From NCBI RefSeq assembly GCF_014280035.1, contig NZ_CP047957.1, positions 2,046,001 through 2,110,000 on the forward strand: a stretch of 64,000 nucleotides of DNA, written 5' to 3'. Below the pieces are notes generated by a model. That model made no database searches. It had not been told where the DNA came from and saw only the letters and a list, made by a program, of their open reading frames with translations. Below, one piece after another: positions 17,299-54,779 of the stretch. The number at the start of each line of letters is the position of its first letter. Positions within the stretch are counted from its first letter, which is position 1. Position numbers and translations under genes: made by a program. The DNA comes from Synechococcus sp. A18-25c. Its GTDB lineage: Bacteria > Cyanobacteriota > Cyanobacteriia > PCC-6307 > Cyanobiaceae.

Positions 17299-17886
17299 AT
17301 GAAGCTGTTGATCCATGGTCGCAACTTGGATGTGACGCCCGCATTGCGGGATTACACCGAAACCAAGCTTGACCGGGCTATTCATCACTTCAACGATCTT
17401 GTCCAAGAAGCGGATGTTCACCTATCGGTGGCCCGCAACCCCAGAGTTCCGCAACAAACAGCCGAGGTCACGGTGTTCGCGAATGGAACCGTGATCCGAG
17501 CCCAGGAACGCAGCGAAAACCTTTACGCCAGCATTGATCTGGTGGCCAGCAAACTGGCCCGTCAGCTGCGTCGATTCAAGGACCGCACCAGCGATCACCA
17601 TCACAGCCACGGCCATCGCGCCACGGAAACCCCGGCCACCGAGGCGGTTCTCAACGACAGTCCTGTGGAGGAATCGCTGCTGGATGGCAAAGAAGCACAG
17701 CTGCCGAACCCCGGCGTGCGGCGCAAATATTTCGCCATGCCGCCCATGAGTGTCGACGAGGCCCGCCATCAGCTCGACCTCATCGATCACGATTTTTATT
17801 TGTTCCGCGACCGTGCCAGTGATGAATTGCAAGTGATCTACCGACGCAATCACGGTGGATACGGCGTGATCCAAGCTCGCAACTGA
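17299..17886 (+). CDS. hpf: long-form ribosome hibernation promoting factor (LrtA)
   Basis: 195 residues. The N-terminal ribosome-binding domain ([19 protein letters not shown] to about residue 100) is joined by a His-rich linker (DHHHSHGHR) to the C-terminal dimerisation domain ([19 protein letters not shown], then DFYLFRD). The long form links two 70S ribosomes into an inactive 100S dimer. In cyanobacteria it is the light-repressed LrtA. The ATG has a good Shine-Dalgarno, GGAGGG six bases upstream. It heads a plus-strand run with deoC, recO, an MFS gene and a glycosyltransferase. Confidence 0.95.
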
Positions 17887-17923
17887 ACTTTTCGCGACGG
17901 TTCTTCCGTCTGTTTCCCCAGCG

Positions 17924-18604
17924 ATGACCATGTCACCGCGGCGGCAGGACCTGCCAGACCTTCCCCCGCTGATCCACCAGGCTTTGCTCAACCCAATGCT
18001 CCAGGAGGAGGAGCTTCACACTCTCTGCGATGCCTCAAGGCAGCTTGGTTTCGGTGGCGTCTGCGTCAGCCTGAGCCACCTCCAGGCAGTGCGTCAGCGG
18101 CTCGGGGGACGCGGACCGGTACAACTGGCCGCCACAGTGGGGTTTCCATTCGGCGCTCTGCCGGCCGAACTGAAGCAAGCGCAGGCGGAGTGGGCCGCCG
18201 CCCATGGCGCTGACGCCCTGGATGTGACCCCCGATTGGTCCGCACTTGTGAATGGCCGGGCCAACACCTTCGCCGAGGAATTGGCTGCGATTGCCGCGCT
18301 GGATCTGCCCATGACGGTGGTTCTCGACGTCAATCAGCTCCAGGACGAACAGCTCGCTTTGGCGGCGGAAGCTGCCATGGATGCGGGCGCCGCGGCACTA
18401 CAAGCCGGCAACGGCTTCGGGCCCGCTGTCACACCGGAACAGATCAAAACCCTGAGACAACACTCGCGCGGACGCTGTGCCATCAAGGCCGCAGGTGGAA
18501 TCCGGGAGCTCGAGCACGCACTGGATCTGGTGGAAGCCGGTGCAAGGGGCCTAGGCACCGGCCATGGTCCGTCGCTGGTGCAAGCCCTGCGCCAGCAGCG
18601 ATGA
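17924..18604 (+). CDS. deoC: deoxyribose-phosphate aldolase homologue lacking the Schiff-base lysine
   Basis: 226 residues of TIM-barrel DeoC fold: GFGGVCVSLSHLQ, VGFPFGALPAELKQAQAEW, then IKAAGGIRELEHALDLVEAG near the end. In functional DeoC the substrate lysine lies in a DFIKTSTG segment. Here the aligned segment is AALQAGNGFG, with Q160 where the lysine should be; the second lysine, K188 in IKAAGG, is retained. The N-terminal IDHT motif is also altered to IHQA. Either the protein has lost aldolase activity or it has another role. Its stop overlaps recO by four bases, so it is retained in an operon. Confidence 0.8.
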   Translation: MTMSPRRQDLPDLPPLIHQALLNPMLQEEELHTLCDASRQLGFGGVCVSLSHLQAVRQRLGGRGPVQLAATVGFPFGALPAELKQAQAEWAAAHGADALDVTPDWSALVNGRANTFAEELAAIAALDLPMTVVLDVNQLQDEQLALAAEAAMDAGAAALQAGNGFGPAVTPEQIKTLRQHSRGRCAIKAAGGIRELEHALDLVEAGARGLGTGHGPSLVQALRQQR

Positions 18605-19389
18605 GCGGCGACAGACGCCTGCAGGGCCTCGCCCTCAAAGTAGGGCCACTGGGTGAGCACGATCGGCTGCTGACACTGTTGAGCGACGAAGCCGGGGTGG
18701 TGAGATTGGCCGTGCCTGGCGCTCGCCGCCCCAAAAGCAGCCTTGCTGCAGCCGTTCCCCTCACCCTTTTGGATCTGCAGGTGGTGGGGCGCCGCGGCCT
18801 CCAACGCGTGCGGCAGCTGCAGGTGCGTCACAACTTCAGCGGCGTGGGGCAGCATCTGGAAACCCTGGCGGCCGCCCAAGCCCTAGCAGAGCTCTCGATC
18901 GCACTGGTGAGCGATGACGACCCCATTCAAGGCTTACTGGAGACGGTGCTGATTCACCTAGAGCGACTGGAGGCCCTGAGCCGCTCCCCACAACCCAACC
19001 CGGACCTCAGTTTGGCGATGCTGGTTCAAGCGGGCGTGCACCTGCTAGCGCTCGGCGGCTATGGCCTACCGCTTCAGATCTGCTGCCAGAGCGGTGCTGA
19101 GCTGATTCCGCCGATCGGTCAGTGGGAATGGCGCTGCAGCCTGCTGCCCGAGCAAGGCCTCGCGCTTGGGAGCCTTCCTGGCGCCAGGCTGCAGCTCAAC
19201 CCCTCCGAACTGGCCCTGCTGCAACGGCTGCCCCGGCCGGATCTTCCCAGGCGCCCGAATGGAGAACTGATGGGACCGCGTTCGGTGTGGCTCAAACTCC
19301 TGGCTCTGATCGACTGCTGGTGCCGGGTGCATCTACCCCGCCCCGTGCGCTCTCTGAAGATGGTGAGCGACTATTTGCCTGCGCCGTAA
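18601..19389 (+). CDS. recO: DNA repair protein RecO
   Basis: 262 residues. RecO anneals complementary strands and helps load RecA in RecF-type gap repair. The N-terminal OB fold begins RRLQGLALKVGPLGEHDRLL with VVRLAVPGARRPKS; the helical C-terminal part follows. The start ATG overlaps the deoC stop (ATGA), so the two are translationally coupled. A longer open frame exists upstream but only as an antisense-like shadow inside deoC. The usual RecO zinc-finger cysteines are mostly absent apart from a CC pair in QICCQSG. Confidence 0.9.
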   Translation: MSGDRRLQGLALKVGPLGEHDRLLTLLSDEAGVVRLAVPGARRPKSSLAAAVPLTLLDLQVVGRRGLQRVRQLQVRHNFSGVGQHLETLAAAQALAELSIALVSDDDPIQGLLETVLIHLERLEALSRSPQPNPDLSLAMLVQAGVHLLALGGYGLPLQICCQSGAELIPPIGQWEWRCSLLPEQGLALGSLPGARLQLNPSELALLQRLPRPDLPRRPNGELMGPRSVWLKLLALIDCWCRVHLPRPVRSLKMVSDYLPAP

Positions 19390-34917: not shown

Positions 34918-34999
34918 GGGTCGGTGCCCGAGTGGTTAATGGGGGCGGACTGTAAATCCGCTGGCTCTGCCTACGTTGGTTCAAATCCAACCCGGCCCA
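34918..34999 (+). tRNA. tRNA-Tyr (GTA)
   Basis: 82 nt with a long variable arm. The acceptor stem GGGTCGG (34918-34924) pairs with CCGGCCC (34992-34998, one G-U pair), discriminator A. The T arm is GTTGG-TTCAAAT-CCAAC. The anticodon GTA is at 34952-34954. CCA is not encoded. It is followed nine bases later by tRNA-Thr, with which it is probably co-transcribed. Confidence 0.95.
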
Positions 35000-35008
35000 T
35001 CCACACAT

Positions 35009-35080
<72 letters not shown>

Positions 35081-48831: not shown

Positions 48832-48863
48832 CTTTGGATCACGTCCGTGATCAGAATGTTTTA

Positions 48864-48980
48864 CCTGGCATCGAGCTATTTTCTCAGGGGGCTACCCCCC
48901 AAATATCGTCGCCGCTGCTGCGTTTCACAACCGAGTTCGAGATGGATCGGAGTGGGACCACAGCGCCATGGACACCAGGA
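48864..48980 (-). rRNA. rrf: 5S ribosomal RNA
   Basis: About 117 nt. On the minus strand the 5' end TCCTGGTGTCCATGGCGC pairs with the 3' end TGCCAGG; the interior CCATCTCGAACTCGG and the conserved loop follow the 5S pattern. Last gene of the rRNA operon. Confidence 0.93.
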
Positions 48981-49001
48981 TAGAAAACATTCCCAAGGTT
49001 G

Positions 49002-49022
49002 AACCCTGAGAACTGCATAGGT
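49002..49022 (-). other. pre-23S processing stem, 3' side
   Basis: This 21-base segment in the 23S-5S spacer is complementary to 52151-52171 upstream of 23S: 19 Watson-Crick matches, one G-U pair and one mismatch. The two flank 23S symmetrically and would form the base of an RNase III-type processing stem. Confidence 0.65.
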
Positions 49023-49096
49023 CATCACCCTCCACTTTCGCTTCAGATGATGGTCTCGATTGAATAAAACTTGCCTCAGACAAGAGCCAAATGAAT

Positions 49097-51960
<2,864 letters not shown>

Positions 51961-52349
51961 ATATAATCTCCAACACGCTTGCCGTCGTTGAAACGGATTC
52001 TCACTGATTTATTACTAAATCAATAATCAAACTCCTGATTGCTCGACACAATCAGAAGAACGTGATGGAGTCTCGGCTCTTGCTCAAGAATTGACATCAT
52101 TCATCAAAGAATGATGCATCCATGAGAGATGCTTTATTCTTTCCAGACTCACCTATGCAGTTGTCAAGGTTCTGCTAGACATCAAACTGATCGCTCAGTT
52201 CGAGCCCAGCATCTTATCAACCAAATTCAAAGCAAACACTCATCATTTGGAATGACAGGAAGCTGAGTTCATGCCAGCGGACACATCTAAATCACACACC
52301 TACGAGTTCACCTTCCACTGTTCAGAAGATGGAGATTAAGTTCGGTCAG
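51961..52349 (-). other. internal spacer between tRNA-Ala and 23S rRNA
   Basis: 389 bases, A+T-rich, without a gene. It holds the 23S 5' processing-stem half (52151-52171), which also contains a boxA-like antitermination sequence GAACCTTGACAACTG on the minus strand (52158-52172). A small inverted repeat GATTTA-TTAC-TAAATC lies near 52007-52022. Confidence 0.7.
52151..52171 (-). other. pre-23S processing stem, 5' side, overlapping boxA
   Basis: Complementary to 49002-49022 beyond the 23S 3' end (21 bases, one G-U and one mismatch). On the minus strand it reads AACCTTGACAACTGCATAGG and thus also resembles the cyanobacterial boxA antiterminator. Confidence 0.65.
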
Positions 52350-52422
52350 TGGAGGTTAGGAGACTCGAACTCCTGACATCCTGCTTGCAAAGCAGGCGCT
52401 CTACCAACTGAGCTAAACCCCC
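52350..52422 (-). tRNA. tRNA-Ala (TGC)
   Basis: 73 nt in the 16S-23S spacer. On the minus strand the acceptor GGGGGTT pairs with AACCTCC, including a G-U pair, discriminator A. Anticodon arm CCTGC-TTTGCAA-GCAGG gives TGC. The T arm has the standard TTCGAGT loop. Confidence 0.95.
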
Positions 52423-52431
52423 AACACCGAA

Positions 52432-52505
<74 letters not shown>

Positions 52506-52540
52506 AGGAAGACTCAACCCTTGTGGGGTGTGACCTAGAC

Positions 52541-52556
52541 AAAGTTTAGGAACTGA
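52541..52556 (-). other. pre-16S processing stem, 3' side
   Basis: AAAGTTTAGGAACTGA on the plus strand is the exact 16-base complement partner of 54527-54542 in the 16S leader when both are read in the minus-strand transcript. It lies 136 bases beyond the 16S 3' end. Confidence 0.65.
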
Positions 52557-52691
52557 ACATCTCCTTCAGTCTCTTGATGATTACTCATCAATCACTGCTC
52601 TTAATGCTGAGGTACCGATCGACCTAAGGTGACAGGATTTCGGCCTAAGAATAAAAGTACTCAGGCATCAAAATCATTGTGTTGTCTCCCT

Positions 52692-54176
<1,485 letters not shown>

Positions 54177-54779
54177 TAGATCATTTCCTCTTAGAAGCTT
54201 TCACTTCCTCAAAATGATTTGCGTCACCCATTGCTCAGTTTTCACTGGCAACAGTTGAGGCCTCCTTCCCGCTGACACAGAAAGGGTTCTTAAGAGTGCA
54301 TCTCTAGATTTCTCTTTCAATGACTTTCCAGGATCTCAGATCCGGTTGTTGCTCAACATCGCGCACACCGACAACTTCAAAGCTCGTGAAAACTTTCAAG
54401 TTGCAAGCACGATGCTTCTCTGCAACGAATAATTGTTGACGGGACCTCACACCTTCATCGCTCATTCATCAAAACTGCGACACACATCTCGCGATGCATC
54501 TCGCAGACTTTGACGCGATGAAAGCGTCAGTTCCTAAACTTTTCGATTGTCCAGGTTCTGCCTTCGCGCCCCCTCTCAGGAGCGGTTGGCGGTGCGGCCT
54601 CCCGGCCGCTTGTAGAACTTACAACACCGTGGGATCGCTCCCTCTTGGCCTCGTAAGCACTTCTAAACACTACAAGCTCGCGCTCTTCACGTTCAGAAGC
54701 TGCGCTTCAGGCTTTGGCCTCCCGCGCAGTCCAAAACCATAACCCAACTACTCCCCCACTCGCAACCCCCTCCCCTTTC
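54177..54779 (-). promoter_or_regulatory. 16S leader and upstream region of the rRNA operon
   Basis: 603 bases without a gene between the inositol-phosphatase stop and 16S. It contains the 16S processing-stem half at 54527-54542. A tentative minus-strand promoter is TTGCGA (54760-54765), an 18-base spacer and TATGGT (54736-54741), just after the upstream gene. The leader is unusually long, and a small palindrome, TTGTA-agttc-TACAA, lies around 54612-54628. Confidence 0.4.
54527..54542 (-). other. pre-16S processing stem, 5' side
   Basis: TCAGTTCCTAAACTTT on the plus strand is the exact reverse complement of 52541-52556. In the transcript the pair would bring the 16S ends together for RNase III cleavage. 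It is about 350 bases before the mature 5' end. Confidence 0.65.

Follow-up and report, generated by a model that had tools for sequence, protein, structure and literature searches.

A DERA orthologue of marine Synechococcus and Prochlorococcus lacks the Schiff-base lysine and appears to be maintained by selection

What becomes of a deoC gene whose product has lost the lysine on which its chemistry depends? The window, that is, the whole 64,000-nucleotide stretch of Synechococcus sp. A18-25c analysed here, raises this question, for it carries an uninterrupted deoC homologue with glutamine at the position of the Schiff-base lysine. The open reading frame starts with ATG and runs to its stop with no break in frame. 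Against the NCBI deoC model TIGR00126 the protein scored 117.8 bits, a bare pass by half a bit over the cut-off of 117.3, while PF01791 gave no match at an E-value of 0.001 and was absent from the listing at E 10 as well; pipelines will thus label the protein DERA by the former model, and the latter misses it. Solved DERAs were nevertheless its best sequence matches (top match 1j2w, 2.7e-27), and an AlphaFold2 model built from 42 sequences was a confident TIM barrel (mean pLDDT 93.5) with a Foldseek TM score of 0.90 to 1mzh and 0.83 to E. coli 1jcl. A VIA comparison of the model with the B. halodurans DERA gave a Z of 33.4 over 215 residues at 1.4 Å, and DERAs occupied the top rows of both structural comparisons. 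We take the gene to be orthologous to DERA (deoC), with the TIM barrel kept. With an E-value limit of 10, the genome had no other TIGR00126 match, so that a second deoC copy was not found. A phage origin was rejected, since none of the 11 stretches in viral_contigs that matched a pattern encoded a relative.

Table 1. Positions in the window of the deoC homologue, its neighbours and its active-site codons
Feature	Positions	Strand	Basis
hpf/lrtA-like gene (presumed name), upstream of deoC	17299..17886	+	ORF, locus comparison
deoC homologue (lysine-less DERA-like protein, 226 aa)	17924..18604	+	ORF, TIGR00126, AlphaFold2
His18-Gln19 codons (E. coli Asp16-Leu17; IDH in lysine-bearing relatives)	17975..17980	+	alignment
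Asp100 codon (E. coli Asp102, proton shuttle)	18221..18223	+	alignment
Gln160 codon (CAA), Schiff-base lysine position (E. coli Lys167)	18401..18403	+	alignment to E. coli, 1j2w, 1mzh
Asn163 codon (E. coli Thr170), member of three-residue switch	18410..18412	+	alignment
Lys188 codon (AAG), second active-site lysine (E. coli Lys201), kept	18485..18487	+	alignment
recO, start overlaps deoC stop (ATGA)	18601..19389	+	ORF, locus comparison

Residues were mapped onto E. coli DeoC (NC_000913 deoC), in which residues 16, 47, 102, 167, 201, 238 and 239 agree with the literature numbering (Table 1). The segment that carries the aldolase lysine reads ALQAGNGFGP, as the first-pass annotation had described it, and Gln160 aligns with E. 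coli Lys167 and with the KTSTG lysine of Thermus 1j2w and of 1mzh, so that the Schiff-base lysine is missing; Lys188, described as a retained helper, does pair with Lys201 of the E. coli enzyme. For the functions of Lys167, Lys201 and Asp102 we follow PMC6244999 and PMC8403123, according to which Lys167 cannot be exchanged in DERA without loss of function (the review PMC6244999) and Lys201 of the E. coli enzyme tunes Lys167 and relays protons (both sources). The IDHT motif had been called changed and indeed reads IHQA, with E. coli Asp16 and Leu17 replaced by His18 and Gln19, but the Thr-to-Ala part of this change is unspecific, Ala being found at this position in 11 of 44 outgroup rows too. 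Cys47 of E. coli DERA corresponds to Cys47 of the window protein, and the glycines of the phosphate-binding loop are retained (E. coli Gly171/204/205 as Gly164/191/192); for the Ser238/239 loop the alignment is good to within one residue only. The lysine-less family rows had either Asp or Glu at position 100, with Glu in 10 of 56 and in 22 of 22 rows of two lysine-less sets. A substitute lysine at the catalytic position was considered and rejected: lysine occurred in at least 30% of the lysine-less rows in columns 67, 84, 188 and 194 only, columns 67, 84 and 194 lie away from Lys167 in the alignment, and the window protein has just three lysines (84, 175 and 188), so no other one can be placed there. 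On the alignment, aldolase chemistry at the old lysine position is excluded.

The loss extends well beyond this strain. Of 31 same-genus genomes, 27 had a deoC homologue, among them all 24 with completeness of 90% or more and contamination of 5% or less, and all 27 same-genus rows had Gln160. A draw of 200 genomes from the family yielded a homologue in 199. Sequences were read for 109 family loci spanning all 34 sampled genera; lysine was absent from every row of 16 genera (78 rows: 77 Gln, 1 Ile) and present in every row of the other 18 (31 rows), and no genus was mixed. The one Ile at position 160 among the family rows (codon ATA) was found in L095 of genus g2. Among 80 named loci, 59 had Gln and 21 had Lys, the Gln rows being titled Synechococcus (including WH7803), Prochlorococcus or uncultured relatives and the Lys rows Cyanobium, Vulcanococcus, Synechococcus such as WH 5701, or uncultured. 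From these titles and from general taxonomy, we take the lysine-less group to be the marine Synechococcus and Prochlorococcus lineage. A tree of 103 selected rows was computed without column 160, by a quick search without bootstrap, and has long branches. In it a branch with an SH-aLRT of 99 separated the 53 lysine-less rows from all others, and a single change at position 160 was enough for the family split; on this tree there is one loss, at the base of the marine lineage. The modest family score (TIGR00126 cut-off exceeded by 0.5 bit, PF01791 unmatched at E 0.001) is the one ground for suspecting an alignment or sequencing error or a lesion confined to the strain, yet the same residue recurs in many independent assemblies with unambiguous flanking alignment, and the orthologues read from 34 genera and 80 named loci, among which those of the clade lack the lysine, ruled out a chance alignment or strain lesion; we regard an artefact of any of these kinds as scarcely credible.

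The pocket varied further within the family. When rows were pooled by residue 160 itself into 137 lysine-less and 52 lysine-bearing rows (189 in all, including duplicates where named and other loci overlap), Lys188 was absent from 3 of the former and 5 of the latter, which indicates that no single pocket residue is indispensable, and it changed five times on the family tree. Five loci (L211, L212 and L228 among the named ones, L101 and L130) kept Lys160 and had lost Lys188 to Gln, Glu or Ser, the mirror image of the marine change. Genus g9 (L042-L063, genomes of 1.6-1.7 Mb), probably high-light Prochlorococcus, had a very long stem in the 103-row tree (3.64 changes per site). Its pocket was remodelled a second time, with Ala19, Ser47, Glu100 and Asp163 alongside retained Gln160 and Lys188.

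Outside the family, the first outgroup sample (44 rows) consisted of the 30 best TIGR00126 scorers plus 14 picked rows, a choice biased to high scorers, and had lysine in all 44. The idea that all outgroups keep the lysine was overturned once low scorers and all remaining same-class genomes were included: the 92 same-class genomes outside the family in the TIGR00126 survey comprised 89 with lysine and 3 without. G242 (L247) had Gln160, His188 and Asn100, and a second genome of its family, G426 (L257), had the identical Gln/His/Asn set, the pair giving a dN/dS of 0.077. Single genomes had Glu160 with Ala100 and the IDH His lost too (G342, L309) and Met160 (G367, L314). Six other genomes of the genus of G342 retain the lysine, so its loss is young, and it could be early decay. 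The lysine changed four times in a 126-row tree computed without columns 100, 160 and 188, in which the starred branches alone force three changes; it would thus have been lost about four times in the class, the three losses outside the family being independent. G242 and G426 belong to a separate cyanobacterial family in which the equivalents of Lys167, Lys201 and Asp102 are all missing, with deoC at approximately 1501-2118 of L247 and a recO homologue in both loci.

Codon 160 and the gene as a whole behaved as expected of a maintained sequence. In 43 lysine-less rows codon 160 underwent seven changes, six synonymous and one altering the amino acid. Median NG86 dN/dS ratios of deoC were 0.079 (30 of 55 pairs with usable dS), 0.050 (21 of 21), 0.103 (13 of 36) and 0.189 (227 of 231) in four lysine-less sets, 0.284 (230 of 231) in lysine-bearing family rows and 0.193 (4 of 91) in outgroup rows, and a mixed set gave 0.327 from the only usable pair of 15. 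Codon-model fits gave 0.072 for the first lysine-less set and 0.141 for the lysine-bearing set. For recO the medians in the same four lysine-less sets were 0.116, 0.107, 0.173 and 0.090, and 0.338 in lysine-bearing rows. Constraint on deoC equals or exceeds that on recO in marine Synechococcus, and falls short of it in g9. By these ratios, the lysine-less marine protein is under purifying selection and its gene is not decaying. The suggestion that Gln160 is fixed under such selection was borne out by the changes at its codon, the low ratios and the slow rates at Gln160 and Lys188 given below, and the description of the gene as intact by its open frame, by dN/dS values mostly between 0.05 and 0.19 and by its presence across the family sample; decay of the gene in the marine clade is excluded.

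Rates were compared between 17 pocket positions and the remaining sites, five of the 17 (18, 20, 163, 192 and 193) being presumed pocket residues that we added. The list otherwise draws on residues named in PMC7671976 and PMC8403123. The mean pocket rate was 0.49 versus 1.06 elsewhere in lysine-less rows outside g9, a value as low being reached by 6 of 5000 random sets, 0.44 versus 1.03 in genus g9, 0.20 versus 1.03 in lysine-bearing family rows, and 0.31 versus 1.14 in the first, biased outgroup rows. The lysine-less pocket thus evolves about twice as fast as that of lysine-bearing or outgroup rows, and constraint on it is partly relaxed. In lysine-less rows outside g9, Gln160 and Lys188 were within the slowest 7% of sites; Asp100, which varies between Asp and Glu, was no longer slow in lysine-less rows (rank 0.50, the median). 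The joint states at positions 19 and 160 across the 189 pooled rows were Gln-Gln in 109, His-Lys in 49 and Ala-Gln in 22, and at position 163 Ser accompanied Lys160 in 47 rows and Asn accompanied Gln160 in 107. His19-Lys160-Ser163 thus appears to have switched together to Gln-Gln-Asn, and by these states and rates the marine pocket is one that changed and was then re-fixed, with some loosening.

The neighbourhood of the gene is conserved across the family irrespective of the lysine. The hpf-like gene, deoC and recO are consecutive on one strand at 17299-19389 of the window, and the position of hpf beside deoC is a family-level feature. The upstream gene, presumably hpf/lrtA-like, preceded deoC in 107 of 109 family loci versus 1 of 44 outgroup loci. 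Among the 109 family loci, recO came next after deoC in 106; two of the three exceptions are truncated by a contig end, unlike the third, L115. The order also held for 78 of the 80 named loci and for 11 of the 44 from the outgroup. Translational coupling to recO had been advanced in support of repurposing. The ATGA overlap is real (recO ATG at 18601-18603, deoC TGA at 18602-18604), but it is ancestral and gives no evidence of repurposing, because the gene order and the same four-base overlap also occur in lysine-bearing loci (L141 and L105). Phosphopentomutase (deoB, TIGR01696) and pyrimidine nucleoside phosphorylase (TIGR02644) were found over the cut-off in 0 of 54 cyanobacterial genomes each, with weak partial sub-cut-off matches in 38 and 35 genomes, respectively; as controls, 14 named genomes were used, and each model scored above its cut-off in 6 of them. 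The lysine-bearing cyanobacteria among the 54 genomes therefore showed no classical deo route either, and this lack may have made the aldolase dispensable. According to the accessible portion of PMC5464585, which does not mention the missing lysine, DERA is conserved across cyanobacteria and non-essential, the essentiality result coming from S. elongatus, outside this clade.

Several accounts of a gene that is intact and yet lysine-less have to be weighed. The protein could still be a Schiff-base aldolase in which Lys188, adjoining the old lysine in the pocket, is now the nucleophile, and the retention of Lys188 in 134 of 137 lysine-less rows at a rate among the slowest 7% of sites, together with the retained Asp/Glu100 and phosphate-loop glycines, is in keeping with this. 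We nonetheless consider it improbable, given that Lys188 is missing from three lysine-less rows, that G242 and G426 lack both lysines and still give a low dN/dS, that deoB and the pyrimidine phosphorylase that would act upstream were not found in the 54 cyanobacterial genomes, and that Lys201 is described as a tuner of Lys167 and a proton relay, and loss of Lys167 as abolishing function (PMC6244999 and PMC8403123). Alternatively, the sole use of the barrel may be as partner or subunit to another protein, its pocket binding no ligand. About four losses of the lysine from intact genes, a roughly twofold looser pocket than in lysine-bearing relatives and the hpf-deoC-recO order kept across the family are all compatible with such a scaffold; the pocket of lysine-less rows is still slower than the remaining sites, however, and sites 19, 160 and 163 moved to new fixed states instead of drifting, and we think this account unlikely.

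Passive retention, in which deo chemistry is useless and the gene is a slowly decaying leader cistron for translation of recO, would accommodate the missing deo partners in the 54 cyanobacterial genomes, the overlap with recO and the loss of the lysine, Asp100 and the IDH His in the one species G342, which may be early decay. It predicts neutral dN/dS and frameshifts, against which stand the ratios of 0.05-0.19 in the four lysine-less sets, the intact frame in the same-genus sample of at least 95% completeness and in the family sample, and the predominantly synonymous changes at codon 160, and it is very improbable.

The explanation we favour, and think probable, is that the gene is a DERA orthologue that has lost Schiff-base aldolase chemistry and is selected for a role needing no catalytic lysine. 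The old pocket may still bind a phosphorylated carbonyl compound or sugar phosphate, hydrogen bonds from Gln19, Gln160 and Asn163 would replace the covalent lysine, and Lys188 with Asp/Glu100 could supply charge or acid-base chemistry for an isomerase-, lyase- or sensor-like role. Given about four losses of the lysine with the gene remaining intact, this role may be a long-standing additional function of cyanobacterial DeoC and not a new one. In a more specific and more tentative version, cyanobacterial DeoC would have an ancient Schiff-base-independent function (e.g., sugar-phosphate sensing or conversion), which at least four lineages kept when they dropped aldolase chemistry; in marine Synechococcus and Prochlorococcus, with the pocket rebuilt as Gln-Gln-Asn, it would be the only function left. 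Of the original reading as a repurposed TIM barrel and not a decaying gene, the second half therefore stands, decay being contradicted, whereas the inferred repurposing is rivalled by an older Schiff-base-independent role that fits at least equally well.

Compared with canonical DERA (E. coli b4381; PDB 1jcl, 1j2w, 1mzh and 6d33), the window protein shares the barrel fold (TM 0.83-0.90), the equivalents of C47, D102 and K201, the glycines G171/G204/G205 and, in the family, an orthologous gene position; it differs in lacking the Schiff-base lysine, in having the Asp16 and Thr170 equivalents replaced, and in a genome without deoB or pyrimidine nucleoside phosphorylase over the cut-off. Its closest relatives are the lysine-bearing DeoC proteins of Cyanobium, Vulcanococcus and Synechococcus WH 5701, with which it has in common the hpf-deoC-recO order, the GFGP loop and the VPDF motif (VIN in other cyanobacteria), although Lys160, His19 and Ser163 are retained there and a few lack Lys188. 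The Kemp eliminase KE70 series (3npu and 8for, in the VIA fold list) is a DERA barrel that carries out non-aldolase acid-base chemistry, but it is a human design, and the likeness observed is that of the fold. Plant PDX1.2 is a lysine-less homologue of a lysine-dependent barrel that is kept by selection; it is a paralogue that acts with active partners, unlike the window gene, the only TIGR00126 copy in its genome. Two marks of a pseudoenzyme were found here, namely that a residue on which the parent reaction depends is lost and that the protein is retained under purifying selection. No report of a lysine-less DeoC in cyanobacteria was found in the open-licence PMC literature. Because the lysine-less gene is near-universal in the sampled marine Synechococcus-Prochlorococcus genomes and passes the NCBI model by half a bit, DERA assignments there in metabolic reconstructions are probably wrong. 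A natural DERA that would have lost its lysine about four times also offers a ready-made experiment on a class I aldolase barrel without covalent catalysis, for which the lysine-bearing sister lineages are the controls. Elsewhere in the window, an rRNA operon (16S, Ile and Ala tRNAs, 23S, 5S; 48863-54177, minus strand) and the genes for tRNA-Tyr and tRNA-Thr (34918-35080) were ordinary.
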